Assembly: GCA_022563535.1 (NCBI GenBank)
Contig: JADFNE010000004.1
Coordinates: 1-64,000, forward strand
DNA from: Myxococcales bacterium
GTDB taxonomy: Bacteria > Myxococcota_A > UBA9160 > UBA4427
Length of the DNA: 64,000 nucleotides
Direction: 5' to 3'
Each line of letters opens with the position of its first letter. Position 1 is the first letter of the stretch. Of this stretch, positions 42,774 to 60,528 are shown piece by piece. The notes below the pieces were generated by a model that saw only the letters and a list, made by a program, of their open reading frames with translations, was not told the DNA's origin and did no database searches. A program made the translations under genes and the position numbers.

Positions 42774-42856
42774 GGCGCGGGAGAGTAACAGCCCCAAGAG
42801 CGCATGGGCCGGCTACTCACATCCTTTTCTATACTTAGCTCCGGAGAGCCAGGCTA

Positions 42857-45800
42857 CTAGGCCCCGACCTCGACCTTGGGCCCTTGTGGCCCGTAGAGCT
42901 TCGCTGCGAGAGAGCCGAGCCAGACGGACACCGGATCACTGCCGAGCCGCAGCAACCTGTGGCGCGCGCCCTCGATCAATTGAAGTGTTTCGGACCCCGC
43001 GAGCGGAGCCTCTTGCAGGATCCGAAAGAAGGTGGCTTCAATTTCTGACGCACCCGTTTCCTTCTGCCACTTATTGACCCGCGCGGAAAAGGCTCGATCT
43101 CCGGCGTTCGGCTTCTCGTGTTTGAGCGGGGGGCCGAGCGCGTTCATCGCTGCGAGCACACGTCGACCGCGTTCTCCGTAGGCGAAGCTGCCGAGTTCTT
43201 TGGGGGAAATCGGCGCGCCGATCGTGTAGTCCTGCGCACCGTGAGCGATCGGAAATTCGAGTTTGCCCACAGCCGGCTGTACCGACAGGCCGCCCGAAAT
43301 GCGGATGGGCACGATGGGAATCTCGAGTTCGAGTGCGAGATCGAGAAACAGCGAACTGATCTTCGTCACGGGTTCCCGACAACTCTGGCTTCGAGTGCCC
43401 TGGGGATGCACGAAGAACGCGCGGCGACCGGCGGCGAGATCGGGCTTTAGATTCGCGAGAATTTCGAACATCGAATCCGGCTTCGATTGATCGAAGTAGA
43501 GAATCGACTTCGGATCTCGGGCACCTGGATACGTCGCAAGCATTTTCAGGATCCAACCGATCCAGCCCTGTTCGTGTTTCGCGTTCGCCATCGTGACGAC
43601 TTGAGTTCCGGTGAGGGCCGAGAGCATGTTGGTGACGAGCAACGACTCGATCTGCACCTGATGATTGCCAACGAATATTGCGCCCCTGCCCCCGAGCGAT
43701 GCAAATGCGTCGGGGTCTTCGACTACGACCCGACCCACGTAGCGCTGGATCAAGCCCTCCCAAAGATCCTGTCCCAACCATTGAGAATCGATTCCCAGCA
43801 ACGGGTTCCAGAAACGGTGCAGCCGTTCGAGCGCAAGCGACCGGCTGTTTCGATCGAAGCCCGTCTCGTCCCGCACCACAAAATCCTGACCGTCCCGATA
43901 GACTTCGATCGCGAGCCTGTTCAGGGGCAACGCATCGGGCAGATCCCCCGGATGCAATCGTTCGCGCAGAGCGAGATGCTCCTTGATGGCGATCGTCTCT
44001 ACGTCTTTACTGCGATAGATCCCCTCGATGGTCCCGGGCATCCAATCGCTGGCCAGGACTTCGGCTTCGCAGAGTCGCGTCTCGCCATTTCTGCGTCGGG
44101 AAAGCGACACCCCCTCGACGAATTCACGATCGCGAAGGAAGCTGCGACGATCCAGCGGAGTAGCGGACCCCAATGCACCCTTTGGAAAACAAGCTTCCAC
44201 GAGCGAGAGTTCTGCGAAGACGCCCTGGTCGCCGATTAATTGAATTTTAAAGCGGGGCAAATCTGGTTTTGCGAGATAGCCGTCAAAGCGGATCTCACAC
44301 CGGACCTCTCCCCGGTTGGGAATTTCGCCGTACAGGGTGAGTGCAGTAATCCGGGCCGGATAGGCGACCTTGTCCTTCGCAATCTCCGGCGCCCACAGGT
44401 GCAGTTGATCGTGGGGGATACCGTGCAGTGCCGCATCGAGAAGCGCAGGGTGCAACAAACCGATCGGCACACTTCCCGCGCTGGCATCCAGGACCAGTGA
44501 GGCGCCGTGATCGGTGATCTCGCCGCGCTTCATCAACTGGAAGGCAGGTCCGTGGAACAAGTTTCCGGAAAGGTAGGGATCAGAAATCTCCCTTCCCTCT
44601 TCGGCGTTCAGCGCCGGGGGTGCAGGCTTTCGATCTCCCGTTTCGACTCTTGCCGACGCGACCTCGATTCCTTCGCTCGAATCGAGTGCATCTCCCGAGT
44701 CCGCGTAGAGTTGCACGAAGTATGAGTTGGCAGATCGTGGTTCGACTTCGGTCCACAAACGCCGCGGGCCATCGAAGTCCACCCAACCCTTGAGCTGAAC
44801 GTCGTGCAGTGCAACGACCTGTCCCGGAACCGCGCAGGCCAGTTGATCTGCAATACACATCATCGGCAGGGCCGGACGATTCCAGGTCGGACAGTGGTCG
44901 GCAAGCCAGAGATCGACCGCGGGGTCGAGAATCACCTCGGAACTTTTGGATTTGCGACCGCGGGATGGCGGCGCTCCCGAGACGATGCGCATTCCCATTC
45001 CATCGGCTGAATAGATTCGAATGCCGTCGCACCACAGTGATGCGCTTGCAATCGCGAACGGGCCGTTCTCGTCTCGTCCGACTTCGGTCACATCCAACGT
45101 GACTTGAACCGTGTTGTTCAGCGGCACCACCTGTCCGCGGTACTTCCAGGTCATCGGCCGACCCAGCGCGATGGGCTCGAACCGGGGCGCGTCGATGCCT
45201 TCGCCCATACCGCTCTCCAACATGAAAAACTGCAAGGTCTGGATCATGGCCTCGATCCCGAGCGACCCCGGCTGCACCGGATCCTGAAAGAAGTGCGCCT
45301 TGAAGTACCAGTCCTCCGCGTCGATGCTCCGCTCCGCTCGCACCCGGCCGAGGCTCTCGGCACCGCCTTCGGGCCAATAGCCCGTCACCCGATCGAGGGT
45401 GCGCAGTCTTGCGCCGCCCAACCTGAGACTACCGGCGAAGTAGCGATCGGGTTCACCCGTGAGGTCGAGATTGAAGTCACTCGCCTCACTCAGAAGTGCG
45501 CGTTGCTCGTCGCTGGTGGGCTGACCGATTTGATTTTCGAGCGACAGCGCCTCGGGGGGGAAGAAGCCGAACACGGTGTCCATGACATAGACACGCCGCT
45601 CGCCCTGCTCTCCCGACAGGAAACACTCGACGTCGAAGCTCACGACGATCATACCGGCGGCCTTGGAGATGTTCTTGAGGGTGACCGCAGTCCGCAGGGT
45701 ACCGGCATCTTCAAATAATTCGGCCTCGAGTGTGGCGGTACCGTCCAGGTTGCGAAAGCAGACTTCGTCGTCGACGGTGAGGGCCGAACCGATATAGCTC

Positions 45801-48800
45801 GCGAGCCAGCCGCAGGGTTGCAGGGCGGCCTCGAGGATCACGCAGTACGGCAGCGTTCGAGCACCGTTTTCATTCAGATACCAGGCGTCGGGCGGTATGT
45901 CGTATTCGATCTCGACGGTCGAGCCGACCTCCATCGCCCCGATTTCTCCGCTGATCTTCGTGGCGCGAGATACGAACAAGTACGGTGGACCCGGGAGTCG
46001 CGGCACGCGACCCGGTGCATCGAAGCGCGTATACATCGGCCCAAACGCGTCGGAAGGCTTGCCCCAGGCACACGCGAGCATCGATTTTTGATCAAAGGCA
46101 AAACGCCCGCCGTCTTTTGTCGGGACACTGGCGACTGGTTTCGATTCAACGAGGCTGGCCAGCAGCTCTTTGCGATTCGAAAGCGGCCAGTCGGGAACCA
46201 GCGAAAGGCCCGTGCGCCGGGCGTGAAATGCCTTGCGTCCGTCCACGGTACAGAGCAAGTCGGCGTAGAGGGTGGGAACCGGGCCGTCGATCACTTCTTC
46301 GACGAATACTTCGTAGACGACGTGCTTTGATTGCGGCGTCACCTGACCGCGGCAACGCATCTGGATCGACTCTCCGATCACCGGTTGGAAGCGCCAGGAG
46401 TCTCGCTCGAGGGTGAAGCCCAGCGCGGCGAGATAGAACGACATCGCCTGCAGGCAGCCTTCGAACATCAGGGTTCCCGGCATGCAGGGATCGTTCTTGA
46501 AATGTCCGTCGAAGAACCAGTCGTCCGGATGCACCGGGGCTTCGGCGCGCAGGTAGCCACGCCCCCATGGCCCACCCGTCGGATCGAATTCACTCACCTC
46601 GTCGAGAAAGAGCATCTTGCCGCTCTGGATCGCCGGGCTTTCGGTGTGCGTGCGACTGTGTTCGAAGCCGTCTCCAAAGCACTCCCATGTCCGGCCTTCG
46701 GCAAACGCCCGAAGCTGAGCGCGATCAAAACTCGATTGCGTACACGCAACCGCGGGTGGGTCGAGCCGGGGATTCTTCGTCGGCTCGGCCTCTTCGGCAG
46801 ACCACAAGATTCCCTCGGAGTTGGCGAGTTCTTCATCGCTGAAGAAACCCGCTTGCCCACCCTTGATGCTGATCCGCGGCACCCCATCGATCAGGCATTG
46901 GTAGTGAAAGAAGAACAACCGAATGTCGTCTTGCCGCGCGTGACCATCAACGTGGATCTCATAGCAGAGGGTGTCACCCGGCTGCGGAAGATCACCTTCG
47001 TAGGTGAGTTCACAACCGAGCAGCCGATACACCCGCTCCCCCTGATTGAGGAAGTCGGCACCCATGTACGAGATCAACATCAGGTCCGCCTGCCCGGACT
47101 CGATCATGATGCCGGCGGGCATGCGTCCTCGATTGAGATACCAGGAATCGTCGAGCACGTCGGTCTCGGTCCACATGATCCCGGCACCGTGCTCACCCGG
47201 CTTGGCGTCGATTCCCGTAACACGATCTGCCAGCAAAAGCGGAGGCTCGGGCATTCGTACCTGGCGCGCGAAGCCGTCTTGCTGTTCGAACATCGGACCG
47301 TAAATCTCGGAGATGCGACCCGATGCGTGAATCTCGACTTGAGCACGATCGAGGGTGGGGCCAATCGGATGCTGGATAACCTGGTTCGACACTGGGTCGG
47401 GCTCATCTAGCTTGCTGGGTACTGGCTTGGTTACTGGCTTGGGTGCAGCCACGACCGCAGGTCTGGGATGCGAGCTGGGCGCGGTGACTTTAGTCTGCAC
47501 GATGGGCGCGGGCGCGGAAACGATCGGTTGAACAACCGGGGCCAGAACGGTTCCACCGGTGCTCAATACTTCGGCGGTCGGCCGCAGGTTCTGGCGCAAC
47601 GCAAGAAAGCGTTGATGCATTTGTGCCTGTTGGCTGACGAATTGCTGATGAACCCGGGACAACTGTTCCACATGCTGTTGCCAGACATCCACCGCGGGAC
47701 CGGCGGAGCCAGTGGGGGCACTGATGGCCGCCGCCGCGGGAACCTCGATGGGTAGCGGTATCTCGGTTTGGATCGCGGCGGGCACGACCCAGTCCTCATC
47801 CATGATCGAGGGAAGTGCCGGCGCAGGCTGCATGATCTCTACTCCATCGGAATGTTTGCTCCGGGTCGGAAAACGGACAGCTTCTCGATGTCCGGGTAGT
47901 CGCAGGTGCGGTGTCTTGCGTTGCTGATCTGTTGCAGAGAGTTGTGGCGACGTGTCGCGCACTACCGGGTTCAGCCGCTCCAGCAACCGCGAAGGATCCA
48001 CCGGAACGCCGGCGGCGATCAACGCTGCGATCGCCTCGAAGATGGTCTCGATTCCCCGTCCCTTTCGGTCGAGGGCGACCACGACCGCCTGCTGGTTTCG
48101 CTCGCCCAACAAGTCGCGAATCCAACCCGAGCACGCGCTCATCGGGCCGTGCTCGATAAAAACCCGCACACCATCCGCCCACGCGCGTTCGATGACCTGC
48201 GAAAAGTCGAGGGTGCGATGAGCCTGGTTCATGATCGTCTGGGTGCAGGCCTCGGTTTCGGGGGTGTAGGCCGCGTCGCTGCCGCCGGAATAAAACCGCA
48301 CGCCGGGGACCGGGGTGACTTCGCGTCGATGAATATCGAGCCACGCATCGCGGAACTCGTCGACTTCGGGGACGTGCGCGGCCATGTTGTAGTCGAGCTT
48401 GTGGCAGCGCCCGTTTCCAAGTTCTTCGCTTACCCGTTGAACGATCCGCTGACATGCATCGGCGTCACCTGCGATCACGCAATCATTTTTGGTGTGGATG
48501 ATTGCGAGGTGGAGACGCTCCTCGCTGGCAATCCACTCGCGCACCCGGGCGACCGGTGCCAGGAGTCCCCACACGGCCCAACGAACTTCTTCGAGTTGCC
48601 CGTCTGCAGCCCCCCACACCCGAGCGATCGCATCGAAGGGACCGGCCAGTTCGTTGGTGTAGAGCCCGCTCTCGTCGATCTCCCGGCGCATCGCGTCCAT
48701 GTCGGTCCAGGCCCCGAGCGCAAAGAGTGAGTTGCTCTCTCCCGACGAGTATCCAATCGCCGCATCGGGTTCAATTTCGAGCAGACCCCGGGTCAACTCC

Positions 48801-51736
48801 GCGTGCATCTGGCTGAGACACGAAGCACCCCAGAGCCGTTGATCGTTTGTGGCCGCGGCGTCTTTCCCCTCGAACACCCAGCTCATTGCCTCCGCGAGTC
48901 CGTCGAAGCGACGTCCGAGCCGATCGCCCAACTCGGGCAACGCCGCCAGCAGTTCTTCGCCCATGCCGTGGTATGCCGAACCGGCGGAGGTAAAGACGAA
49001 TGCGAGATCACCGCGGACCGGCTCGGCGCGATAGTGAACGCCCTCGCCCGGCGGAGCACCATCGATAATATGTGCGCGCGCCCGCTGGATCCTTTGCTTT
49101 AGCGTCTCGTCGTCCCCCGCGACCAGAACCAATCGCGCGGGCAATGCCGTGCTCGAAGAATCGCTTGCAGGTGTCGAGGTTCTCCCCTCGTCAAGCGCCG
49201 CCAACACGCTACTTGCGTCGCGACCTTCGTAAATATGTAACATCATCGAGCTGCGCTCAGAACGAGGCGGCGATTCAACGTGTTCCGCGAGACTCCAAAT
49301 CGACTCAACGCCCTCTGCGCCGCTCATCGCCGCAACGGCCAGGCGCGCGGTTCTCCTACCGGACGAAAGCCAAGGCCTGCCATCCGGGCGTCTGCGGTGA
49401 TGAAGAGACAGGGCCGCGGCGGTCAGATGCAAAAGTCCCGAGGCCGCGTGCGCGTGTCCCCAACGATCGTCGAGAGATCCGATTTCGCTCTGGGGACCAA
49501 AGTTCAGTACCCGGTCGTCGGTCGTTACTTCTCTGTCTCCGTCGATTACAGCGTAGATCCGATCGCCGTCGCGCTCAGCATCTTCGAGACGCTTGATCAC
49601 CAATGCGACTGCGGCATCTCCGGGAATCTCGCATCCCGATCCCGAAGACAGACACTCGCGAGCGGCCGCGACATGAACAGGCTCGCACGACATGTCTACC
49701 GCTCCGACCAGCGCGGCATCGAGTTCGTGCTCGCGCAGAGCACGCAGCGCAACCCTTAGCGCTTCGAGTCCGGAGCGTTCTTCCAACGAGATCGTGCAGC
49801 TCGGTCCGGCGAGGTCCAGTTGACGGTTGAGCCGGTTCGCCACGATGTTCGGCATGCTGCCGATGACCCCGGCGGATTCGAGCACATCGACCACGCCATC
49901 GCGCGCGTTTCCCAACCAATCCTCTTCGGCTTGACTCTCCAGGTCGATCCCCAAAGCCACGGCCCACTCTGCGAGTCGCCAGCGTGCGCCGTAACGCGCG
50001 ACCTCCGGATCGGTCCCCATGCCGACATAGACGCCGGTTCGCTCCCTGGGCAGAGCAGCGACTTCGGCCGCCGCCTGGCATCCGGCGTCCAACATCAGAA
50101 GCTGCTGTGGAAGTGTCTGTCGCAGATCGTTGGGCGGGATTCCGAGCGCCGCGATATCGACATCGAAGACCTCGATGCGCCCCTCGAGTTTTCCACTCGC
50201 GTCGGGCTTCACACAACTCGCTCCCCCGAGCAAAGCATCGCTGAAGGCAGCGCGATCGGGACAACCAGACGCCACGACCCCAACGCCCACAATCGCGACG
50301 GGCACGAGCTTGTCGCCGACCACAAATTTTGCCAACTGAGGATCCGCCGGAACGGCGTTGGCAATGGATCGCTCTGGATCAAATTGTTCGACAATCAAGT
50401 GTGCGTTGTTGCCACCAAAGCCGAAGGCCGAGATCCCGGCGCGCCTCACCCCGTCCGATACAAAGCCGGGCACTTGCCAGGGTTCCGCTTTTTCGAGAAT
50501 GCGAAAAGAGGATCCGTCGATCGCATCGATCGGGTCGTCGGCGTGAAGTGTCGGCGGACGAACGGAGGCGCGCATGCCCTCCAGTACTTTGATCAGACCG
50601 GCGACACCTGCCGCGGTGATGAGATGTCCCATGTTCGATTTGAGCGAGCCGATCCCGACAGGCTCCGGCAGGGTTCCGAAAACATCGCCGAGGCTTTCGA
50701 TTTCCGTTGCATCGCCGATCGCGGTACCGGTTGCGTGGCACTCGAGCAGCGAAATATCCCGGGGCGACACGCCGCTCACTTCGTAGGCCGCGCGAATGGC
50801 GCGCACCTGGCCTTCTCGCGCGGGAACCAATGCGCCCTGACCGCGGCCGTCGTTCGAGAGCCCCACCCCGCGGATCACACCCAGGATCTCATCTCCGTCG
50901 CGACGCGCATCTGCTAGCCGTCGCAGCGCAACGAACGCCGCTCCCTCGGCCGGCATCAAGCCGTCGGCTTCGCGATGGAAGGGGCGGCTCCGCCCGCTCT
51001 TGCTGAGCGCCGAGAGCGCCGAGAACCCGACGTGGATGAAGAGATCGTCCGCACAATTGACTGCACCCGCGAGCATGACATCGGCCCGATCGTCGTGGAG
51101 CCAGTCACACGCATACTTGATCGCATAGAGCGAACTCGCGCAGGCGGCGTCGAGGGCAAAGGCGCCGGCTTTGAGCTCGAGCGCGCGTTCGAGAATCAGC
51201 GCCGGCAACCCCGAAGTAAATCGATTGCGCGGATCGGGTCGTGGCTCGGTCGCCGAAAGGTCTGAGTCGGCTCTCCAGATCGATTCGGCGTAGCGCGACA
51301 TCGACGCGGAAGGAAAGGACAAGTTGCCGAAGATGGCGCCAACTCGCGTGCCACTCGCTGCGTGCCCCGCATCTCGCAATGCTTCGCGCGCAGTGTGGAG
51401 CACCCACTGAAAGAGTGGATCCAGGCTCGTCACATCTTCTGCTTCGATCGCGAACCCGGTCGGATCAAAGCACTGCTCGAACCCCTTCACATAGCCACCG
51501 CGATCGGTGGAGGTGCGATCGACCGTGGAGGACCCAGCCGCGAGCACTCGTTCGGTCGCAATCCCCCACCGACCGGCCGGCACCGGACCGAGAACGTCCT
51601 TCCCCGCCAGAACCAGTTCCCAGAGTTCTTTGGGATTCAGCGCGCCCGGCAGCACGCAGGCACGTCCAACGATCGCGATCGGTTCGAAAGAGGGATTCGC
51701 AGGTCGAGAAGATGAAGGGGGTGATGATGACGACAA
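42857..51736 (-). CDS. pfa3: PUFA synthase subunit Pfa3 (KS-CLF-AT-DH-DH-DH'-AGPAT)
   Basis: 2959 residues. KS has Cys199 in LDAACASSLYA plus His motifs ECHATGT and NMGHLITAAG. The second KS-like domain is a chain length factor: where DTACSSS is expected it has SLEERSG, so the Cys is Glu653. AT: Ser997 in GYSSGES. Then a Gln/His-rich helix and Pro/Val linker. Two FabA-like double-hotdog dehydratases: His1745 (DGHFKNDPCMPGTLM) and His2148 (KAHFFQDPVQPGSL). A PKS-type DH-like fold follows (NLFHGPAFQLM, HPALLDAALHG), then at about 2550-2630 a degenerate AcpS-like stretch. The end is an AGPAT domain: NHQVQIE with His2692 (NHx4E) and HPQGTRS in place of FPEGTRS. The only N-terminal start is TTG, one codon after the in-frame TAG of pfa2. 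It likely elongates, dehydrates and transfers the finished PUFA to a glycerolipid. Confidence 0.9.
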   Translation of the reverse strand: MSSSSPPSSSRPANPSFEPIAIVGRACVLPGALNPKELWELVLAGKDVLGPVPAGRWGIATERVLAAGSSTVDRTSTDRGGYVKGFEQCFDPTGFAIEAEDVTSLDPLFQWVLHTAREALRDAGHAASGTRVGAIFGNLSFPSASMSRYAESIWRADSDLSATEPRPDPRNRFTSGLPALILERALELKAGAFALDAACASSLYAIKYACDWLHDDRADVMLAGAVNCADDLFIHVGFSALSALSKSGRSRPFHREADGLMPAEGAAFVALRRLADARRDGDEILGVIRGVGLSNDGRGQGALVPAREGQVRAIRAAYEVSGVSPRDISLLECHATGTAIGDATEIESLGDVFGTLPEPVGIGSLKSNMGHLITAAGVAGLIKVLEGMRASVRPPTLHADDPIDAIDGSSFRILEKAEPWQVPGFVSDGVRRAGISAFGFGGNNAHLIVEQFDPERSIANAVPADPQLAKFVVGDKLVPVAIVGVGVVASGCPDRAAFSDALLGGASCVKPDASGKLEGRIEVFDVDIAALGIPPNDLRQTLPQQLLMLDAGCQAAAEVAALPRERTGVYVGMGTDPEVARYGARWRLAEWAVALGIDLESQAEEDWLGNARDGVVDVLESAGVIGSMPNIVANRLNRQLDLAGPSCTISLEERSGLEALRVALRALREHELDAALVGAVDMSCEPVHVAAARECLSSGSGCEIPGDAAVALVIKRLEDAERDGDRIYAVIDGDREVTTDDRVLNFGPQSEIGSLDDRWGHAHAASGLLHLTAAALSLHHRRRPDGRPWLSSGRRTARLAVAAMSGAEGVESIWSLAEHVESPPRSERSSMMLHIYEGRDASSVLAALDEGRTSTPASDSSSTALPARLVLVAGDDETLKQRIQRARAHIIDGAPPGEGVHYRAEPVRGDLAFVFTSAGSAYHGMGEELLAALPELGDRLGRRFDGLAEAMSWVFEGKDAAATNDQRLWGASCLSQMHAELTRGLLEIEPDAAIGYSSGESNSLFALGAWTDMDAMRREIDESGLYTNELAGPFDAIARVWGAADGQLEEVRWAVWGLLAPVARVREWIASEERLHLAIIHTKNDCVIAGDADACQRIVQRVSEELGNGRCHKLDYNMAAHVPEVDEFRDAWLDIHRREVTPVPGVRFYSGGSDAAYTPETEACTQTIMNQAHRTLDFSQVIERAWADGVRVFIEHGPMSACSGWIRDLLGERNQQAVVVALDRKGRGIETIFEAIAALIAAGVPVDPSRLLERLNPVVRDTSPQLSATDQQRKTPHLRLPGHREAVRFPTRSKHSDGVEIMQPAPALPSIMDEDWVVPAAIQTEIPLPIEVPAAAAISAPTGSAGPAVDVWQQHVEQLSRVHQQFVSQQAQMHQRFLALRQNLRPTAEVLSTGGTVLAPVVQPIVSAPAPIVQTKVTAPSSHPRPAVVAAPKPVTKPVPSKLDEPDPVSNQVIQHPIGPTLDRAQVEIHASGRISEIYGPMFEQQDGFARQVRMPEPPLLLADRVTGIDAKPGEHGAGIMWTETDVLDDSWYLNRGRMPAGIMIESGQADLMLISYMGADFLNQGERVYRLLGCELTYEGDLPQPGDTLCYEIHVDGHARQDDIRLFFFHYQCLIDGVPRISIKGGQAGFFSDEELANSEGILWSAEEAEPTKNPRLDPPAVACTQSSFDRAQLRAFAEGRTWECFGDGFEHSRTHTESPAIQSGKMLFLDEVSEFDPTGGPWGRGYLRAEAPVHPDDWFFDGHFKNDPCMPGTLMFEGCLQAMSFYLAALGFTLERDSWRFQPVIGESIQMRCRGQVTPQSKHVVYEVFVEEVIDGPVPTLYADLLCTVDGRKAFHARRTGLSLVPDWPLSNRKELLASLVESKPVASVPTKDGGRFAFDQKSMLACAWGKPSDAFGPMYTRFDAPGRVPRLPGPPYLFVSRATKISGEIGAMEVGSTVEIEYDIPPDAWYLNENGARTLPYCVILEAALQPCGWLASYIGSALTVDDEVCFRNLDGTATLEAELFEDAGTLRTAVTLKNISKAAGMIVVSFDVECFLSGEQGERRVYVMDTVFGFFPPEALSLENQIGQPTSDEQRALLSEASDFNLDLTGEPDRYFAGSLRLGGARLRTLDRVTGYWPEGGAESLGRVRAERSIDAEDWYFKAHFFQDPVQPGSLGIEAMIQTLQFFMLESGMGEGIDAPRFEPIALGRPMTWKYRGQVVPLNNTVQVTLDVTEVGRDENGPFAIASASLWCDGIRIYSADGMGMRIVSGAPPSRGRKSKSSEVILDPAVDLWLADHCPTWNRPALPMMCIADQLACAVPGQVVALHDVQLKGWVDFDGPRRLWTEVEPRSANSYFVQLYADSGDALDSSEGIEVASARVETGDRKPAPPALNAEEGREISDPYLSGNLFHGPAFQLMKRGEITDHGASLVLDASAGSVPIGLLHPALLDAALHGIPHDQLHLWAPEIAKDKVAYPARITALTLYGEIPNRGEVRCEIRFDGYLAKPDLPRFKIQLIGDQGVFAELSLVEACFPKGALGSATPLDRRSFLRDREFVEGVSLSRRRNGETRLCEAEVLASDWMPGTIEGIYRSKDVETIAIKEHLALRERLHPGDLPDALPLNRLAIEVYRDGQDFVVRDETGFDRNSRSLALERLHRFWNPLLGIDSQWLGQDLWEGLIQRYVGRVVVEDPDAFASLGGRGAIFVGNHQVQIESLLVTNMLSALTGTQVVTMANAKHEQGWIGWILKMLATYPGARDPKSILYFDQSKPDSMFEILANLKPDLAAGRRAFFVHPQGTRSQSCREPVTKISSLFLDLALELEIPIVPIRISGGLSVQPAVGKLEFPIAHGAQDYTIGAPISPKELGSFAYGERGRRVLAAMNALGPPLKHEKPNAGDRAFSARVNKWQKETGASEIEATFFRILQEAPLAGSETLQLIEGARHRLLRLGSDPVSVWLGSLAAKLYGPQGPKVEVGA

Positions 51737-51739
51737 TCG

Positions 51740-54700
51740 CTACGCCTGTTCCTGGCTGGGCAGTAGATGCGTTTCCACGCCAATGAACTCCGCGAGCAGG
51801 TTGCCACTGGCATCGTGAAACACCAGATCCGAAACGCTCTTGCTCCCGACAGCACTCCGGCCCGTGAGCGTGCAGCGGATCGGTTCGCTTGTCGGTGCGT
51901 CTGCCCAGGTTCGAATCTCGTTGATTCCCGTCGGGAGCGATGCACCTCCGAGCACATGCTTGCACCAGAGCAACGCGAGCTGCAGCCCACCGTCGAACGC
52001 GAGCGGGTCCGTGATCCACACCGTCTTGCCCGAGTTGGAACGCTCGTCCGCCCAACTCGATTGCTCTACCCCGGAAAGCTCCGCGACCATGCCGCGCTCC
52101 GAGATGCCAGAGATGTTTTGAATCACCTGGAACGCGGGTCCGTGGAACAAAAGCTCGCCGTCGTAGATTTCGGCCTCGCCCCAACTCCCGAGCGCGAGTT
52201 CCTGTTCGTCGACCACATGGGACTGCGAGGTACCGCGCTCGGTAGCCAGTTCCGCGGTGCACCGGTAGTAGATGCCGCCCTTGCGATCTGCCAATTCCAG
52301 GGCCACCGTGGCTCCACTCCCATTGGTCAATTGTCGGGCGTGCACGACCAAATGCTCGCAACCTCCAGCGAACTCTCGCAACGATATTCCGCGCAACACC
52401 TTGAGCTCCGACAAACGCTCGAGCACCAACTCGGGACCAAATGCCTTCGCGCAGCGCGAGAACCATTCGATCACCATCGCGATCGGAACGACCGGCGTGC
52501 CCTTGATCGCATGATCCGCGAGATAGGGATGGGTCTCGTCCCCGACGACTACGCTCAGGGAAAACGACCGCCCTTGCAATTCGGGATCCGACAATGCGGC
52601 GAGTGCTTCGGCCTTGGGTTCGCCCCCTAGTACCAACTCGATCTGCTCGGGAGCGCTGCCCGCCACCTCGTCGACCAACATCTTGGCACCGACGCCGAGC
52701 GGGATCAGCGGCACACCCATCGATTCAAAGTGCGCCTTCAACTGCGGGCTCACCATTCCGCCTTCCCATGGGCCCCAACCGAGAGACTTCACCAGACAAG
52801 CACCGTTGCGACGCCTGAATTCCGCAACCGCGACCTTGTTCAGCACTTCGTTCGCCATCGCGTAGTCGACCTGGCCCACGTTTCCACAGCGCGCCGCTAC
52901 CGAAGAGAAGAAGCACAACAACGCGATTGGATCGTCGGCCGTGGCGGCCAGCAGCGTGCGCAGCCCTTCGACCTTCGTATCGAAGACGCGATCGAATTGA
53001 TCACCGGTCTTCTCGGTGATCCGCTTGTCTGCGATCACTCCGGCGCCGTGCACGATTGCGGCAATGTCTCCCCAGTCGGCGCGGACCTCGGTCAGTGCCG
53101 CTGAGACCGATTCGAGACTCGTTACATCTACCGCCATGTATCGCGCCTGCGAGCCCGCTTTCTCGATCTGCGAAACCGTGTCCCGCACCTCGCGACTCGC
53201 AAGTATTGAGCCGACCTGCTTGCCGAGTGCGACCGGTGTCAGTTTTTCTCCGAGCGAAACCGCATGTGCGAGCAGCGCGCGTTTGAGCGCCGCGTCTCCC
53301 TCGACGCCGTGGCAACACGGCGGATCTTCTGCGAGTTCCGTGCGTCCGAGCAGCACGAAGCGGAGTGCCGCTTCGCTCGCCAATCCGATCAACGTGGTTG
53401 CGGTGACGCCACGCGCGCCACCCGAGGCCACCACAACATCTCCATCGCCCAGTACAGGGGTCCCGCGAACGACTTCGACGGGCTGGCTTCGCAGCACAAC
53501 GCGTCTGCCCGACGCACTGAGTCCCACATCGAGATCGGGGCCACCCAAAACGAGTTCGTCCGCGATCGCGCTGGCGAGTTGTTCACCACTGCGTCCCGCG
53601 CGTTCGAGGTCGATCGCCTTGACCGAAACTCCCGGCCACTCCTGGGCGACGGTACGTGCCAACCCTGCACATCCGGCGAGCCAGGCCCGCGCTGGTGCGA
53701 AGTCCCCTGTTCCAAAGTTTCCACCCGTATCCTGCAGCGTGACGAACACGCCCTCGCCGGATGCCTTCGCTTCGAATCGCTCTGCTACCGCACGGGCGAC
53801 TTCGAAGGCTTCGCGATTGACGCGCGTCGCAGCGAGATCGTCCGAGACTTCGCGCAAGCCGCCAAGAAAGACCACACCGCGAAGATCGCCCGCCGGAATT
53901 TGCGTCACCGCGACAGCGGACACGCCCCGGGTTTCCAGGGCTTCGGCTACCTGTTGCGCAAGCCCTGTCCCCTCGTCGGTGACAATGATTTGCCCTTCCC
54001 CGAAGAGACCATTTTGTGCCATCCCAATCGCCGGCTGCTCGACGGCTGCGAGCACATAGCGACCGAGGCCTGCGCCCACTGGAGGGTCGTCGGCATCACT
54101 GGCCGCTTCGTCGGCCGCGGAAGCGCGGTTCGGGCTCGTGCTAGTTTCGCGTCCCAACTGCCCGTTCAGGTATTCGACCACCTGGCCCAGGGTCGCGAGC
54201 TTGGCCATTACCGCGGTATCGACTTCCGGCAGACCCGGCGCCAGATCGTTCATCGCGGAGAGAATCTCTACTCGCTTGATCGAATCGATCCCGAGGTCAG
54301 CCTCGAGTTCCATTTCCATGTTCAACATCTCCGGCGGATAACCGGTCTTGTCCGACACCACTTCGAGCAACAACGCGTGCAGATCGACTCCGCCACGATT
54401 GGCTTCTGGCTGAACCGCGGGCGGCTCGACCTCCGGTGCCGCCACCGGAGCAACGGCCGGGGGGACGGACTGGACGACCGGCGGCGTCACGAACGCAGGA
54501 GCGGTCGGCATGGGTTGAGCAACAGCGATTGCCGGTTGCACCACGGGTGCCGCCGCAATCGGTGAAGAGAGCGGCGCAGCAATCGGTGCCTGAATTGGCT
54601 GCACAACCGGTGCCGCGGTTGCCGCGGGTTGCAATCCGGCCTGCACCGAAAACGATTGGAAGCTGCGTTCGATCGTATCCAGATAGGCGGTATGGGTCTG

Positions 54701-57700
54701 GGCCATCGCCTGCATGTACGCCGCATGAGCTTCTGCGGTGTGACGTTGAGCTTCCTGATAAGCCTGCGCCCAACCGGGTGACGCCGCGGCGGGAGCCGGG
54801 GCAGTGCTTTGTGTGATCTGTCCAGCAATTGTTGGAGCAACAACTGTCGGATCAACAATTGTCGGATCAACAACAGCTGGCGCCGCAGTCTGTGCGGTAG
54901 CGCGGTCGGATTCGCTGCGAGGTACTTCGACGTACACGGTCTCGATCTCCTTTTCTTTGCGGGGCGGGTTCGGCCCAGGTAGCGCGGCTGTGCCTCCCTG
55001 GGGCGGATATGGCTTGCCGTAGTTGCTGCCGTTGATCGGAATCTTGAGCTTCGGCTCCGCGCGATCGTGCGGGTTCTCGGTCTCGACGAAGTCCGACCAC
55101 AGTGATGCGTAGTCGAGCGCGTGTCCCTCGACCGACAATCGCGCGATCGCCTCGAAGAAGCTGCGCACTCCGTCCCTGCCCTTGCGATCGAGGTTCACCG
55201 CGGCATGGGGCCGATCCTCGAGAATTCGTCCCACCAGGCCGGTCAACACCGACCCCGGTCCAACCTCGACGAAACTCCGCACACCCGCTGCGTACATGGA
55301 TTCGATCATGTCGACGAACTTCACCGGGCAAGCGAGTTGTTCCGCGAGCTTCGCGCGCAGCGTGTTCGGGTTCGGATCGTGGACCGCCCCGGTCGTATTC
55401 GAGTAGACGGGTTTCGCCGGGGCGGAGAACTCGACCTCCGCCAGGTATTCGCCAAACGCTCCGCTCGCCTTCTCCACCACCGGTGAATGAAATGCCGTTG
55501 CGACGGGAAGCCTGCGCGCCGTGATGTTCTGCTCGGCGAGCTTCGCCTCGACGGCCTCGATCTCGTCGGTCTCTCCCGAGAGCACGACTTGTTGGGGAGC
55601 ATTGTGATTCGCAATCACGACTCGGCTGTCCCAGCCCGCGAGCAGGTCGCGGATCTCTTCGATCGGCTTGGACACCGCGGTCATCGCGCCCGGGGTCACC
55701 GCAGCCTGGGCCATCAACTCGCCACGCCGACGGGCGACCGCGAGGAAATCCTTCTCGCTGAGAACGCCCGCGGCGTGCAGCGCCGTGACCTCGCCGAAGC
55801 TATGCCCCGCGAAACAATCCGCTTGCAGACCCAAACCGTCTAGCAGACGCAAGAGCGAAAGACTGGTGCAACCGATCGCGGGTTGCGCCCACTCGGTCGC
55901 GGACAGGGTGCTGGCCTGACTGGCCTTTTCCTCGTCTTCGAACGCAGTACGGGGGAACACCACGTGATGAAGGCGCGTCGTCCCGTCCCATTTGAAGTCC
56001 GCCGCGCGATCCCAGGGCTCGATCGCGCTGGCGAAGTGCATCGCGACCGACGCGCCCATGTGCAGGTACTGACTGCCCTGCCCGGAAAAGAGATACGCGA
56101 GATCTCCAACGCTACTGCCCTGACCGGTGCCGTAGTAAATCCCGGTCGGGGTCGAAAACGATTGGGCAGGTGCGCTGTCGATGCTCGTCGCGGCCTGCTC
56201 GAGCTTGACAGCCAGGTCGGCTTCGTCGTTGGCGACCACGGCCAGACGCACCGGCGCCGCCGGGTCGAACTGAAGTTGGCTAGTGCGCGCCAGCCATTGT
56301 AGATACCCGGACTTCGAACTCTCGCTGGCACGCGAGCGTGCTTCTGCGACCAAAGCGTCGGGGCTTCCTCCGGAGAGTGTCACCAGCTCGGAGCCGAGAG
56401 CCCGCAAGCGCTTCGCAGGTCGCGACGCGACGCCGTCCTTGGGTGTGTACTCGGTCATGGCAATATGAAAGTTCGATCCACCAAAGCCGAACGAACTCAC
56501 CGACGCGCGCCGGGGGTGACTCGAGTCGCGCACCCAGGGTCTTGTCTGCGTCGAGAGATGGAACGGAGACTGTTCGATTTCGAGCAACGGGTTGGGCCGC
56601 TCCACCTTGATCGTCGGCGGCAAGACCTTGTGGTGCAGTGCCATCACGGCTTTGAAGAGTCCCGCGGCTGCCGAGGCCGCCTTGGTGTGGCCGATCTGCG
56701 ACTTCACGGAACCAATCGCACACCACTGCATGTCTTCCCGGCCCGATTCGCTAAACGCGGTCGTGAGCCCCTTGAACTCCGCGGCGTCCCCCGCCTTGGT
56801 ACCGGTCCCGTGTGCTTCGACGAGTTCCACCTGCTCCGGGCCGAAGTCCGTCTGTGCGTAGGTGCGGCGCAGCGCTCTGGCCTGTCCCTCTGGAAGCGGC
56901 GCGTAGACACTCTTGGCCCGGCCATCCGACGACGAACCCACGGCGTTGATGACAGCGTAAATTCGATCTCCATCGCGCTCCGCATCTTCGAGACGTTTGA
57001 GCGCCACCATCCCGAGCCCCTCACCGAGCATGGTGCCGTCGGCCTGATCCGAGAAGGGGCGGCAGTCGCCAGTCGGGGACAGAGCCGGCGTTTTGCTGAA
57101 GCACATGAACATGAAAATGTCGTTCATCGCGTCGACGCCACCGGTGATGACCATGTCCGAATCGCCGAGATAAAGTTCGTTGACTGCCATCGAGAGTGCC
57201 GAAAACGTCGAGGCACACGCGGCATCCGTCACGCAATTGGTACCGCCGAGATCAAGTCGGTTTGCGATGCGGCCAGCAACCACATTACCCAGCAGCCCGG
57301 GAAACGTGCTTTCGCGCCAGGGCGTGTACTGATCGGAGATGCGATCGCAGACCGCTTGCACCTCTGCTTCGGGCAGGCCGCTGTCGCGCAGCGCTTTCAC
57401 CCAAACCGGGCGCTGGAGCCTGCTCACCATCGAACCCAACAACTCCTGGCCCGAGGTCACGCCCAGGATCACCGAGATATTCGAACGATCGAGCTTTTTG
57501 AGGGCTTCACTCGACTGATTGCACGCATCTTCGAGAACGCGCTGGGCGACGATCAATGCGAGCAGTTGCGCGGTATCGGTTTCGGGGACGAGGTTTGGGG
57601 GCACGCCCCAGCCGAGGGAATCGAAGTCGATGTCCTTCAGAAACGCGCCGCGCTTCGCATAGGTCTTGTCCGGCACCGAGGGGTCGGGGTCGTAGTAGTC

Positions 57701-57856
57701 GTCGATCAACCAATGGGATGGCGGGACATCGGTGATCAGATCGCTTCCCTCGAGAATATCCTTCCAGAAGCCGGTGGCGTCGAGCGAACCCGGAAACAGG
57801 GCACTGACGCCAACCACGGCGATGGGCAGACGGGACGATTGATTCGATTTGGACAT
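51740..57856 (-). CDS. pfa2: PUFA synthase subunit Pfa2 (KS-MAT-ACP-KR-DH)
   Basis: 2038 residues from ATG 57856 (MSKSNQSSRLPIAVVG); the longer frame overlapping pfaD is rejected. KS: Cys214 in TDAACASTFSAL, with EAHGTGT and GHTKAASAAAG. MAT: Ser686 in GHSFGEVTA. A long Ala/Pro/Val/Gln linker with a coiled segment follows. ACP: one copy only, phosphopantetheine Ser1192 in LGIDSIKRVEIL; I find no second copy of this motif. KR: VVVASGGARGVTATT near 1475 with Tyr in GQVDYAMANE. C-terminal PKS-type DH: HPYLADHAIKGTPVVP near 1778 and LLFHGPAFQVIQ. It loads malonyl units and performs condensation and ketoreduction. It ends in TAG, which is in frame with pfa3. Marine PfaA has five to nine ACPs, so the single ACP is unusual. 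Confidence 0.9.
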   Translation of the reverse strand: MSKSNQSSRLPIAVVGVSALFPGSLDATGFWKDILEGSDLITDVPPSHWLIDDYYDPDPSVPDKTYAKRGAFLKDIDFDSLGWGVPPNLVPETDTAQLLALIVAQRVLEDACNQSSEALKKLDRSNISVILGVTSGQELLGSMVSRLQRPVWVKALRDSGLPEAEVQAVCDRISDQYTPWRESTFPGLLGNVVAGRIANRLDLGGTNCVTDAACASTFSALSMAVNELYLGDSDMVITGGVDAMNDIFMFMCFSKTPALSPTGDCRPFSDQADGTMLGEGLGMVALKRLEDAERDGDRIYAVINAVGSSSDGRAKSVYAPLPEGQARALRRTYAQTDFGPEQVELVEAHGTGTKAGDAAEFKGLTTAFSESGREDMQWCAIGSVKSQIGHTKAASAAAGLFKAVMALHHKVLPPTIKVERPNPLLEIEQSPFHLSTQTRPWVRDSSHPRRASVSSFGFGGSNFHIAMTEYTPKDGVASRPAKRLRALGSELVTLSGGSPDALVAEARSRASESSKSGYLQWLARTSQLQFDPAAPVRLAVVANDEADLAVKLEQAATSIDSAPAQSFSTPTGIYYGTGQGSSVGDLAYLFSGQGSQYLHMGASVAMHFASAIEPWDRAADFKWDGTTRLHHVVFPRTAFEDEEKASQASTLSATEWAQPAIGCTSLSLLRLLDGLGLQADCFAGHSFGEVTALHAAGVLSEKDFLAVARRRGELMAQAAVTPGAMTAVSKPIEEIRDLLAGWDSRVVIANHNAPQQVVLSGETDEIEAVEAKLAEQNITARRLPVATAFHSPVVEKASGAFGEYLAEVEFSAPAKPVYSNTTGAVHDPNPNTLRAKLAEQLACPVKFVDMIESMYAAGVRSFVEVGPGSVLTGLVGRILEDRPHAAVNLDRKGRDGVRSFFEAIARLSVEGHALDYASLWSDFVETENPHDRAEPKLKIPINGSNYGKPYPPQGGTAALPGPNPPRKEKEIETVYVEVPRSESDRATAQTAAPAVVDPTIVDPTVVAPTIAGQITQSTAPAPAAASPGWAQAYQEAQRHTAEAHAAYMQAMAQTHTAYLDTIERSFQSFSVQAGLQPAATAAPVVQPIQAPIAAPLSSPIAAAPVVQPAIAVAQPMPTAPAFVTPPVVQSVPPAVAPVAAPEVEPPAVQPEANRGGVDLHALLLEVVSDKTGYPPEMLNMEMELEADLGIDSIKRVEILSAMNDLAPGLPEVDTAVMAKLATLGQVVEYLNGQLGRETSTSPNRASAADEAASDADDPPVGAGLGRYVLAAVEQPAIGMAQNGLFGEGQIIVTDEGTGLAQQVAEALETRGVSAVAVTQIPAGDLRGVVFLGGLREVSDDLAATRVNREAFEVARAVAERFEAKASGEGVFVTLQDTGGNFGTGDFAPARAWLAGCAGLARTVAQEWPGVSVKAIDLERAGRSGEQLASAIADELVLGGPDLDVGLSASGRRVVLRSQPVEVVRGTPVLGDGDVVVASGGARGVTATTLIGLASEAALRFVLLGRTELAEDPPCCHGVEGDAALKRALLAHAVSLGEKLTPVALGKQVGSILASREVRDTVSQIEKAGSQARYMAVDVTSLESVSAALTEVRADWGDIAAIVHGAGVIADKRITEKTGDQFDRVFDTKVEGLRTLLAATADDPIALLCFFSSVAARCGNVGQVDYAMANEVLNKVAVAEFRRRNGACLVKSLGWGPWEGGMVSPQLKAHFESMGVPLIPLGVGAKMLVDEVAGSAPEQIELVLGGEPKAEALAALSDPELQGRSFSLSVVVGDETHPYLADHAIKGTPVVPIAMVIEWFSRCAKAFGPELVLERLSELKVLRGISLREFAGGCEHLVVHARQLTNGSGATVALELADRKGGIYYRCTAELATERGTSQSHVVDEQELALGSWGEAEIYDGELLFHGPAFQVIQNISGISERGMVAELSGVEQSSWADERSNSGKTVWITDPLAFDGGLQLALLWCKHVLGGASLPTGINEIRTWADAPTSEPIRCTLTGRSAVGSKSVSDLVFHDASGNLLAEFIGVETHLLPSQEQA
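54826..54870 (-). repeat. Three 15-bp tandem units in the pfa2 linker
   Basis: CAATTGTTGGAGCAA, CAACTGTCGGATCAA and CAATTGTCGGATCAA stand head to tail, each five codons long. In the pfa2 frame they encode the pseudo-repeat VVDPTIVDPTVVAPT in the flexible linker between MAT and ACP. The in-frame unit length allows slippage to change linker length without breaking the gene. Confidence 0.8.
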
Positions 57857-57923
57857 CTCTTGTTTTACCCCTTGGTTCGAACGATTCGAAAATCGAATTG
57901 GATCCAGCTTCGATGATTTCAAT

Positions 57924-59558
57924 TCAACTGAGCGGACGAGGCCTGAAGTCAAACGCCGCCGGTGGGACGGGAACGCCAAAGCTGCGCAGCTGTTGAGCAC
58001 GCGTCAGTACTGCCGCGCCTTCGAGCAGGTTGCGCGCAACCTGAACGACGTTGCGGTTCTCCGGCTCGGCGAGAAAGCTCCCGGCGCTCCACGCATTGAA
58101 CGCGCCCATCGCCGGGCCGCACCAGATCTGATAGTCCGGGCGGCGATCGCGAATTCCTGCGATGGCCCAGCGGCTCGACTGGCCGAGATAAGAGCGAAAC
58201 ACGAGGGCCATTTTGTGTTTTGGGTCGGCTTCCGCTTTGTCGATTTCGCGGGGATCTCGCTCTTGCCAAAATTTCCGGGTATCGCGCCACGCGTCCGCGA
58301 GAGAAGTGCGCAGAATGTCCTTTTCGAGCTTCGCCGTCTCATCCGCCGGTAGCGCATCGAGGGATTCGAAACCGCGATACAACTCCAAGAGCTTCCTGGC
58401 GCGCACGCCGAAGAACGTGCCCCGCTTGAGCACCTGAACTTCAACGCCCAACTCGAACATGTCCGCAGCCGGGGCCATCATGATGTCGGCGAGGCCCGCC
58501 TGGGCGAGCATCTGCTTGCCGTCCGCATCGAGTCCACTCTCGACGCAGGCCTGGTTGACCGAGCCGGTCAAGACGTACGATGCACCCAGGGCAAACGCCG
58601 CCGCGACGGCACCCGGCGTCCCGATCCCGCCGGCAGCACCCACCCGAATTGGACGCCGATAACCCCGCGCGCTGGCGATTTCGTTGCGCAGACCGAGAAT
58701 CGTCGGAAGCAGTGCACTCAGCGGTCGGTTGTCGGTGTGACCTCCCGAGTCAGACTCCACAGTGAAGTCCTCCGCAACCGGAAGCTGGCGCGCAAGCTGG
58801 CCTTCCTCAGCCGTGAGCTTGCCAGCTGCAACGAGCGCATCGACCATCTCTGCAGGCGCGGTCTCGAGGAAGTGGCGCGCGACCTCGGGTCGAGAAATCT
58901 TGGCAAACACATAGTTGCGACGCGTGATGCGACCGGCGGAATCTGTGCCCAGCCCCGTGTATGCGTAGCGAACGACGTGCGGAGTCAGTCCCATGTAGGC
59001 AGCGGCGGAAACCCGGCGCACACCGCGACGGATGTAGAGGTCTGCGATCCGCTCTTCGATCGCGGGTTCGTTGGGGGAATGGATGAGGTTTGCCCCCCAG
59101 CTGAGTCCACCGTTGTCCGTCGTGCCAAGCGCTTGTTCGAGTTCGTCGAGGGCCTGCTCGACCGTTGCGGGCCCGAGGCCGGCCGCGCCAAAGAAACCGA
59201 GAAACCCTGCCCGGGACATCGCGATGACCAGGCGCGTAGTCGCGATGCCATTGGCCATCGCCCCCGAGACATAGGGAAAGCGAACCCCGTGGATCTCGCA
59301 GAAAGATCGATCGCCCAACCATTCGGGGTATATAGAAGGAAGCATCCCCAGCACTGGCCAGCTGGGCGTCCCAGCCGGCAGTTGAGTGCCAGCGGGGGAG
59401 AACTGTCCGCCCTGGGCGATCCCCAGGGCGCCGGTCGTTGGATCCTGCACGACGTATGCCGCGCTGCGAACTTGGGCTGCAAGCGCCAGTAACTCTGCCT
59501 GTTTGAACGCCGGGGTCGCTCCATTGCCCCCACCCGTCCAGACCCCGATCGCTTCCAT
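57924..59558 (-). CDS. pfaD: PUFA synthase enoyl reductase Pfa1/PfaD (nitronate monooxygenase-like fold)
   Basis: 544 residues, similar throughout to PfaD. Conserved blocks are GVRFPYVSGAMANGIATTRL, NLIHSPNEPAIEER, ESDSGGHTDNRPLSALLPTI (FMN-binding and catalytic region near 300) and GAAGGIGTPGAVAAAF. QACVESGLDADGKQ and KMALVFRSYLGQSSRW complete the match. It reduces enoyl-ACP intermediates using FMN. I chose ATG 59558, with GGGAG about 5 bases upstream, over the TTG at 59630. It is the first gene of the operon; pfa2 starts 67 bases after its stop. In myxobacteria the ER gene is likewise first (pfa1), whereas marine clusters place pfaD last. An FMN enoyl reductase acting on this synthase is a family-based inference. 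Confidence 0.93.
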   Translation of the reverse strand: MEAIGVWTGGGNGATPAFKQAELLALAAQVRSAAYVVQDPTTGALGIAQGGQFSPAGTQLPAGTPSWPVLGMLPSIYPEWLGDRSFCEIHGVRFPYVSGAMANGIATTRLVIAMSRAGFLGFFGAAGLGPATVEQALDELEQALGTTDNGGLSWGANLIHSPNEPAIEERIADLYIRRGVRRVSAAAYMGLTPHVVRYAYTGLGTDSAGRITRRNYVFAKISRPEVARHFLETAPAEMVDALVAAGKLTAEEGQLARQLPVAEDFTVESDSGGHTDNRPLSALLPTILGLRNEIASARGYRRPIRVGAAGGIGTPGAVAAAFALGASYVLTGSVNQACVESGLDADGKQMLAQAGLADIMMAPAADMFELGVEVQVLKRGTFFGVRARKLLELYRGFESLDALPADETAKLEKDILRTSLADAWRDTRKFWQERDPREIDKAEADPKHKMALVFRSYLGQSSRWAIAGIRDRRPDYQIWCGPAMGAFNAWSAGSFLAEPENRNVVQVARNLLEGAAVLTRAQQLRSFGVPVPPAAFDFRPRPLS

Positions 59559-59702
59559 GTCACTCCCTTGCACAAATATCTGCGCAGCGTCTTGTGCTGT
59601 GTCTTCACGCAATTCAACCGTCGTGCTCAATCACGACAGCAAGTGTCAATTCGTACTGTGGGGAATGGGGGGGCGGCGATTCCCAGATCCATGCAGATTT
59701 TA

Positions 59703-59720
59703 AGCGTACAACTGTTACTC
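59703..59720. promoter_or_regulatory. FabR-like operator, pfaD-proximal (one strong half)
   Basis: AGCGTACAACTGTTACTC. The left 14 positions match the E. coli FabR operator as I recall it (AGCGTACA, two variable bases, TGTT), but the right arm degenerates after TGTT. It lies about 145 bases upstream of the pfaD ATG, directly before a TAAAAT hexamer on the pfaD strand. Binding here would be expected to repress the PUFA operon. Confidence 0.6.
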
Positions 59721-59832
59721 GAATGAACTCAAGCTGGACTATCGTTCGGTTGAGCTCTCGGGTCAACTCAGTCGCACCGAGTATCAGGGCGAGATTGGTT
59801 ACGATTTTGTAAATTTTGAGCGAATCGATTTG

Positions 59833-59850
59833 AGCGCACATATGTTCGCT
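59833..59850. promoter_or_regulatory. FabR-like operator, palindromic, fabR-proximal
   Basis: AGCGCACATATGTTCGCT is an 18-bp inverted repeat with one mismatched pair. It matches the FabR operator pattern (AGCG-ACA, two bases, TGTTCGCT) at nearly every position. It ends where a TATATT hexamer (59850-59855) begins and lies 52 bases before the regulator's ATG, the place expected for autorepression. Confidence 0.75.
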
Positions 59851-59901: not shown

Positions 59902-60528
59902 ATGCCCAGCCGCGCCGAACAGAAACAAGCCACCCGTCGCTCAATCATCGAAGCCTCGCTCGCGCTGAGCGCCGACCGCGGCTTTTCGAGCTTGAGCTTG
60001 CGCGGCGTCGCGAAAGAAGCGGGGATCGCGCCGACTTCCTTCTACCGACACTTCGCGAACATGGACGAACTCGGACTCGCCCTGGTTGACGAGGTGGGGA
60101 TGTCGCTGCGTCAACTCGTCCGCGAGGCGCGCCGCAAAGTCGACCACAGTGGCAAGGGCAGCGTGATCCGGGCCTCGATTCAGACCTTTCTGAGCTTTGT
60201 CGAGAAGAACGAGAATCTGTTTCGGATGTTGCTCGGCGAAGGCTCGGGGTCTCCGCCGCACTTTCGTCGGGCGATCGCGAAAGAGATCGAACGCTTCACC
60301 CAGGACCTGGCGGAAGATTTGATTCGTGAAGCCGACGCGACCGGGCGGCCGATCGCCTACGTCCATCATGCGGCAGAAGCGATGGTCACCGTTGCGTTCA
60401 ACCTCGGGGCCAGCTCGATCGATCTTCCCCGCGATCAACGGCTCGCTGTGATTGAACGGATCATTATCGAAGTGCGAATCATCATGCGGGGCGCCCAGGC
60501 AGAGGCAGGATCCCTCAATCGGAACTAG
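59902..60528 (+). CDS. fabR: TetR-family repressor of the FabR type
   Basis: 208 residues. The N-terminal HTH reads RAEQKQATRRSIIEASLALS then GVAKEAGIAPTSFYRHFANM, almost the same as E. coli FabR (REVAREAGIAPTSFYRHF). The core LALVDEVGMSLRQLVREAR, GKGSVIRASIQTFLSFVEKN and FRMLLGEGSGSPPHFRRAI also follow FabR throughout. FabR is a TetR repressor that senses the balance of unsaturated and saturated acyl thioesters and controls fabA/fabB. Here its gene is divergent from a PUFA synthase operon, with FabR-like operators between them. So it most likely adjusts PUFA synthesis to membrane acyl composition. It converges, 3 bases apart, on the methyltransferase gene. Confidence 0.88.
   Translation: MPSRAEQKQATRRSIIEASLALSADRGFSSLSLRGVAKEAGIAPTSFYRHFANMDELGLALVDEVGMSLRQLVREARRKVDHSGKGSVIRASIQTFLSFVEKNENLFRMLLGEGSGSPPHFRRAIAKEIERFTQDLAEDLIREADATGRPIAYVHHAAEAMVTVAFNLGASSIDLPRDQRLAVIERIIIEVRIIMRGAQAEAGSLNRN

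Follow-up and report, generated by a model that had tools for sequence, protein, structure and literature searches.

A complete myxobacterial-type polyunsaturated fatty acid synthase operon with a divergent fabR gene in a Myxococcales genome

A stretch of 64,000 nucleotides from a Myxococcales bacterium (assembly GCA_022563535.1, contig JADFNE010000004.1, positions 1 to 64,000; hereafter the window) contains a three-gene operon for a polyunsaturated fatty acid (PUFA) synthase, pfa1-pfa2-pfa3, which is real and complete, with a match far beyond chance. Together with fabR, a gene for a TetR-type repressor located divergently to pfa1, it can be read as a complete, horizontally exchanged PUFA synthase of the myxobacterial type (Type L) under its own FabR repressor. 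We give this reading a probability of about 0.8, judged from the domain set, the active-site motifs, the placement in trees, the divergent fabR, a FabR box and the patchy distribution, all taken from sequence. The operon core is ordinary in kind; the FabR switch is an interesting variant with a testable feedback hypothesis. A more specific picture, in which a mobile synthase cassette brings its own FabR and operator, shuts itself off through unsaturated acyl thioesters, and works with a single acyl carrier protein (ACP) and a modified terminal acyltransferase, is proposed tentatively, at somewhat less than even odds. The linkage of FabR and operator provides a specific control circuit, open to testing and useful for engineering, e.g. 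removal of fabR or of the box to raise the yield.

The pfa operon and its type

The three genes and their domains, comprising ketosynthase (KS), malonyl-CoA acyltransferase (MAT), ketoreductase (KR), dehydratase (DH), chain length factor (CLF), acyltransferase (AT) and acylglycerol-phosphate acyltransferase (AGPAT) units, are as follows:

57924..59558, minus strand: pfa1, enoyl reductase (ER) of the PfaD family; TIGR02814, 616 bits (cut-off 449)
51740..57856, minus strand: pfa2, KS-MAT-ACP-KR-DH1, PfaA homologue; TIGR02813 omega_3_PfaA, 1375 bits (cut-off 1010), and Pfam domains
56441..57850, minus strand: KS1 of pfa2; active site DAACAS
55091..56110, minus strand: MAT of pfa2; GHSFGE
54146..54400, minus strand: ACP of pfa2, single; LGIDSIKR
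52691..53500, minus strand: KR of pfa2; domain match
51743..52570, minus strand: DH1 of pfa2, dehydratase of the polyketide synthase (PKS) type (PS-DH); PF14765/PF21089
42857..51736, minus strand: pfa3, KS-CLF-AT-DH2-DH3-DH4-AGPAT, fused PfaB and PfaC homologue; Pfam and family-model matches, active-site motifs
50357..51700, minus strand: KS2 of pfa3; DAACASS
49127..50326, minus strand: CLF of pfa3; GPSCTISLEERSG at the position of the KS active-site Cys
47957..49066, minus strand: PfaB-type AT of pfa3; GYSSGES, TIGR02816 1.9e-18
46187..47296, minus strand: DH2 of pfa3, FabA-type dehydratase/isomerase; HFKNDPCMPG, PF07977
44927..46081, minus strand: DH3 of pfa3, FabA-type dehydratase/isomerase; HFFQDPVQPG, PF07977
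44177..44926, minus strand: DH4 of pfa3, PKS-type dehydratase; PF14765, His in WLADHCPTW aligned with H2270 of Minicystis rosea
43247..43816, minus strand: AGPAT-like acyltransferase at the C-terminus of pfa3; PF01553, 37.9 bits (cut-off 23), motif I NHx4E, motif III HPQGTR

All three genes run in one direction on the minus strand and no frame is interrupted. The initial annotation had called this a myxobacterial-type pfa1-pfa2-pfa3 operon, which is borne out by domains, family scores and trees. Its extent, 42857 to 59558, holds for the three pfa genes, but the functional unit reaches to 60528, the end of fabR, a regulator that had been missed. The start that it gave for pfa1, ATG 59558, is a good one; the frame is open up to TTG 59630 (open reading frame (ORF) 57924-59630). 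Against the PfaD structure 6lkc of the Protein Data Bank (PDB), Pfa1 gave an E-value of 2.6e-155. The pfa2 frame opens at GTG 58000, with ATG 57856 as the likely start and its stop at 51740, and pfa3 begins with TTG four bases past this stop and encodes 2959 amino acids, whose domains follow, from end to end, the order of the Pfa3 of a same-family genome (75-78% identity). Active-site motifs are present in KS1, MAT, ACP, KS2, AT, both FabA-type DH units, DH4 and AGPAT; the CLF has no KS active-site Cys motif.

For classification, relatives were drawn from phylum genomes, family genomes, named genomes (496 relatives, 80 kept) and plasmids. In most of them the domain census gave the order KS-CLF-(AT)-DH2-DH3-DH4-AGPAT. 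The ER tree places the window in a clade with 100/100 support together with M. rosea, Enhygromyxa, Pseudomarimonas, Mycolicibacter and others, apart from the Shewanella-type PfaD proteins 6lkc and 4yx6, Persicobacter, Streptomyces globosus and the thraustochytrid-type PUFA synthase PDB 9sdd. In the Pfa3 tree, which covers KS to DH3, the window and M. rosea share a clade of 71 rows, which a split with 100% support sets apart from Persicobacter and S. globosus. Shewanella-type sequences were included in the ER tree only, the outgroups of the Pfa3 tree being without Shewanella PfaC. The phylogeny proposed with the initial annotation thus groups the window with a proven producer, although within the type it sits in an 8-row subclade and not in that of M. 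rosea.

Gene and domain order likewise turned out as first described: the ER gene comes ahead of the pfaA- and pfaBC-type genes, all on one strand, and both the AT inside the pfaC homologue and the C-terminal AGPAT match the myxobacterial type. With the marine pfaABCD systems (Shewanella, Moritella) the window shares the KS-MAT-ACP-KR, KS-CLF-DH-DH, AT and ER activities, the ER being homologous to 6lkc/4yx6. Unlike in those systems, its operon opens with the ER gene rather than ending with it, Pfa3 includes the AT and, in addition, DH4 and AGPAT, and its ER belongs to another clade; gene order and ER tree rule out assignment to the marine type. The architecture corresponds to Type L of Shulse and Allen, already known outside myxobacteria (PMC3098273), and therefore "myxobacterial" is a label for an architecture and not for a taxon. 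Planctomycetota, Acidobacteriota, Actinomycetota and Gammaproteobacteria are all represented among the 496 relatives.

The nearest proven producer, M. rosea (CP016211, L127/L183), resembles the window in gene order, in the full domain order including AT and the DH4 His, in the HX4E form of the AGPAT and in its ER and Pfa3 clades. However, its Pfa3 is only 48% identical, it has three ACPs instead of one, its AGPAT motif III reads HVEGT instead of HPQGT, and beside its pfa1 no FabR homologue was seen, with an upstream FabR-box score of 10/16. The Aetherobacter synthase of the DPA/DHA (docosapentaenoic/docosahexaenoic acid) type, compared by its published description and not by sequence, shares the pfa1-2-3 order, the AT in Pfa3 and the C-terminal AGPAT (PMC4882568, PMC8436480), but unlike the window is without DH4 (PMC6731297).

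The divergent fabR gene and its predicted operator

Upstream of pfa1, the following regulatory features were found:

59902..60528, plus strand: fabR, TetR-type repressor of unsaturated fatty acid synthesis, divergent from pfa1; NF008402 equivalog, 239.8 bits (cut-off 151)
59833..59850, plus strand: FabR box A, predicted, AGCGCACATATGTTCGCT; 15/16 specified bases of the E. coli motif
59738..59766, minus strand: pfa1 promoter, sigma-70-like, TTGACC-N17-GATAGT; hexamers and spacing identical in L086 and G251
59703..59720, plus strand: FabR box B, possible, weak, AGCGTACAACTGTTACTC; 12/16, 8 sites of such score in 64 kb

The nearest solved structure to FabR is DesT (3lsj, E 1.7e-27). The gene is unique in the genome, where the next TetR-type match reaches 42 bits, and FabR proteins above the cut-off occur in 8 of 284 phylum genomes and 1 of 30 family genomes. 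In all three of the strongest phylum matches (G000, the genome of the window, G251 and G278) fabR is divergent to pfa1. The same holds for L086, whose FabR is 85.6% identical, L089 and L090, giving six genomes in all, and the linkage follows one subclade of the tree.

The published FabR box of E. coli is AGCGTACACGTGTTCGCT (PMC4273635). Box A has the best score to it in the 64 kb, the next best being 12, and is the only match without mismatch in the 4.6 Mb genome to the pattern with one base relaxed, a relaxation picked after the site had been seen. Boxes scoring 13-16 lie upstream of pfa1 in 5 of the 6 genomes with fabR there, but in none of the 19 relatives that have no fabR beside pfa1 (Fisher 1.1e-4, an indicative value as the compared sequences are related). 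About 18 bases separate the -10 hexamer of the pfa1 promoter from the start of box B, which lies downstream of it, and two boxes are also found in L089 and G278.

A FabR equivalog and a palindromic box are features that the window shares with the known systems, i.e. FabR with its targets fabA/fabB and desA in Escherichia and Shewanella, and DesT in Pseudomonas. Shewanella offers a close functional parallel to fabR-pfa1, its fabR being divergent from the desaturase gene desA, which it represses (PMC4273635). The window differs from these systems in its presumed target, a PUFA synthase, and in its host, a member of the Myxococcota. No report of a pairing of FabR and pfa genes was found in the open-access literature, nor any published work on the regulation of myxobacterial-type PUFA synthases; as far as found, a dedicated FabR switch on a PUFA synthase is an undescribed variant. 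FabR bound to unsaturated acyl thioesters would sit on the fabR-pfa1 intergenic region and repress the operon, thereby closing a feedback loop on membrane unsaturation that would turn the synthase off once unsaturated fat suffices.

Weaker FabR-like genes were seen in other Myxococcota (L268-L270, L273, L274). In L273 and L274, the frame beside the FabR-like gene resembles a ferredoxin-reductase-type protein and is possibly linked to a desaturase, as for DesT.

Opposing observations, ACP number and product

Several observations weigh against a complete synthase under its own FabR repressor. Box B is weak. G251 has fabR and no E. coli-like box in the intergenic region (10/16), and neither fabR nor a box is present beside pfa1 in L085, the sister of the window. 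In G240 and G286, fabR was not detected despite a Pfa3, the G286 contig starting inside the ACP, with its upstream half missing from the assembly, and the G240 contig being a 3.5-kb fragment. In the window's AGPAT, the Glu of motif III is replaced by Gln. Finally, having only one ACP is unusual and could point to low flux or to a collapsed assembly. Because G251 has fabR without an E. coli-like box, the FabR operator varies between genomes. Two other palindromes, GGTGTACGGGTGTGCACC and GTGTACGCTTGTACAC, lie in the fabR-pfa1 intergenic region of G251 (L068) before position 18319, possibly a changed operator.

According to reviews, PUFA synthases have from two to over 10 ACPs (PMC4882568). One is assembled in the pfa2 of the window, 1-5 are found in relatives, with three in the sister L085 and one in L086. 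Collapse of a tandem array by short-read assembly is only slightly less probable than a genuine single copy: besides the three ACPs of the sister, resolved ACP arrays share exact runs of up to 153 bp, and G286, G140, G198 and G055 have contigs that start within the array or a little ahead of it. However, the linkers on both sides of the ACP match those of G251 in length, and a single ACP recurs in L086, L104, L115, L122, L134 and the isolate Saccharopolyspora spinosa (L163). Since more ACPs raise the yield and leave the profile unchanged (PMC5067506), the expected effect of having just one is a lower flux and not a different product.

The position of fabR beside pfa1 might also be incidental, the targets of FabR being other genes or fabR alone. 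Autoregulation from a divergent promoter is common among TetR regulators, and box A, at a distance of about 52 bases to the start of fabR and 275 to the ATG of pfa1, might control only fabR. This is an unlikely explanation, as the linkage recurs in six genomes along one subclade, no other perfectly matching box exists in the genome, and a second, weak site lies just downstream of the conserved pfa1 promoter, two boxes being present in L089 and G278 as well. Control of the pfa operon by FabR is therefore preferred.

For the synthase itself, the following course is proposed. An Sfp-type phosphopantetheinyl transferase encoded elsewhere in the genome (C51:21228) would, in the role of PfaE, charge the ACP, and KS/MAT of Pfa2 and KS-CLF of Pfa3 would extend the acyl chain from malonyl units. 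In some cycles KR, DH1/DH4 and the FabA-type DH2/DH3 would dehydrate and isomerise, in others Pfa1 would reduce, leading to methylene-interrupted cis double bonds. The product would be unloaded by the PfaB-type AT and/or the AGPAT, probably into phospholipid.

Expressed in yeast, the M. rosea synthase gave n-6 PUFAs of the arachidonic/docosatetraenoic type, and insertion of DH4 shifted the product profile of the Aetherobacter enzyme, an effect abolished in the H2270A variant (PMC6731297). The His in question is residue 2270 of L127 (M. rosea) if translation begins at the valine (GTG) before RFEPIAIVG. It is kept in the DH4 of the window, which lies between DH3 and AGPAT. Given the published role of DH4, the conserved His speaks for a profile like that of M. 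rosea rather than that of Aetherobacter; the product itself is not fixed thereby, its control being a complex interplay of domains (PMC6731297).

It is improbable that a secondary lipid other than a PUFA, or a shorter chain such as a linoleic-type C18 or a hydrocarbon precursor, is the product of the synthase. Type L members with uncharacterised products have been listed (PMC3098273), many Type L or Pfa-like clusters are without a demonstrated PUFA product, most relatives found here are uncultured, and related genes in Sorangium lead to linoleic acid only (PMC4882568). In contrast to the window, however, Sorangium is without the AT. Moreover, the domains and active sites of the M. rosea Pfa2 and Pfa3 are present, the trees place the window with M. 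rosea and away from S. globosus, and the genes directly around the operon encode a regulator, a methyltransferase and an ABC ATPase but no thioesterase, glycosyltransferase or nonribosomal peptide synthetase. Family scores and trees also make a PKS or non-PUFA lipid synthase unlikely.

Direct transfer of the product to glycerolipids by the fused AGPAT, as predicted in the initial annotation, is conceivable. Motif I of this domain is NHx4E and not NHx4D in 76 of 76 copies, including M. rosea, and motif III is HPQGTR in the subclade of the window, most other copies having HVEGTR. The domain scores above the Pfam cut-off and deviates from the PlsC/AGPAT signature of NHx4D and EGTR; because NHx4E and HPQGTR replace these motifs, it is best named "AGPAT-like". 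Loss of function through HX4E was considered and dropped, this form being universal in the family. Glu at the motif I position is used by late acyltransferases of lipid A, in whose literature HX4E turns up. For the marine systems, PfaB has been reported to be the terminal acyltransferase (PMC12895367), and here the AT, the AGPAT or both may release the chain.

Distribution, probable transfer and neighbouring loci

Three same-genus genomes are without the operon (RpoB 90-91% identical for the two checked), while Pfa3 genes are present in the same-family genomes G286 and G240. The sister of the window in both trees (support 98; 99/93) is L085, from a metagenome-assembled genome labelled Pseudomonadales, with 82% identity in Pfa1, 71% in Pfa3 and 60% in RpoB, the latter similar to the 61% of Pseudomarimonas. 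Because the sister is found in a gammaproteobacterial bin while same-genus genomes are without the operon, comparison of these sequences points to an exchange of the operon between a gammaproteobacterium and a lineage of the Myxococcota, long enough ago for amelioration. The direction was more likely towards the gammaproteobacterium, as L085 is nested among Myxococcota copies. Mis-binning of the L085 contig, a metagenomic record whose name is only a label, is highly improbable and found no support in composition, since the contig (73 kb including the pfa stretch, GC content 0.55) shows tetranucleotide correlations of at least 0.90 with 4 of 5 other contigs of its bin and of 0.48-0.65 with the window genome.

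A Pfa3 without detectable PfaB-type AT occurs in L089, L108, L115, L120, L121, L151 and others. These are interspersed in the Pfa3 tree with relatives that have the AT, a pattern suggesting that it was lost or gained repeatedly. In the literature the AT is product-determining, and a natural family whose members vary in the number of ACPs, in the presence of the AT and in their AGPAT motifs is useful to learn what sets yield and product. The same-family genome G288 (C164, C128; L040) has a much more divergent Pfa-like synthase, 43% identical over KS-CLF and possibly of another type.

Directly downstream of pfa3 on the same strand lies a gene for an ABC-F type ATPase (40842-42797, minus strand), of which no close homologue was found beside pfa3 in L085, L086 and G251. 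Convergent with fabR is a gene for an S-adenosylmethionine-dependent methyltransferase (60532-61332, minus strand), matched weakly by cyclopropane fatty acid synthase models, far below the cut-off. Three large ORFs, 61511-63265 (584 amino acids), 38715-40592 (625 amino acids) and 35160-36896 (578 amino acids), gave no Pfam match. About 12 kb beyond the window, a separate type I PKS of 2138 amino acids is encoded (G000:C4:76487-82903; L167:488-6904, plus strand), a reducing single module of the order KS-AT-DH-ER-KR-ACP, which is not PUFA-like and whose KS has similar proteins commonly in the family.

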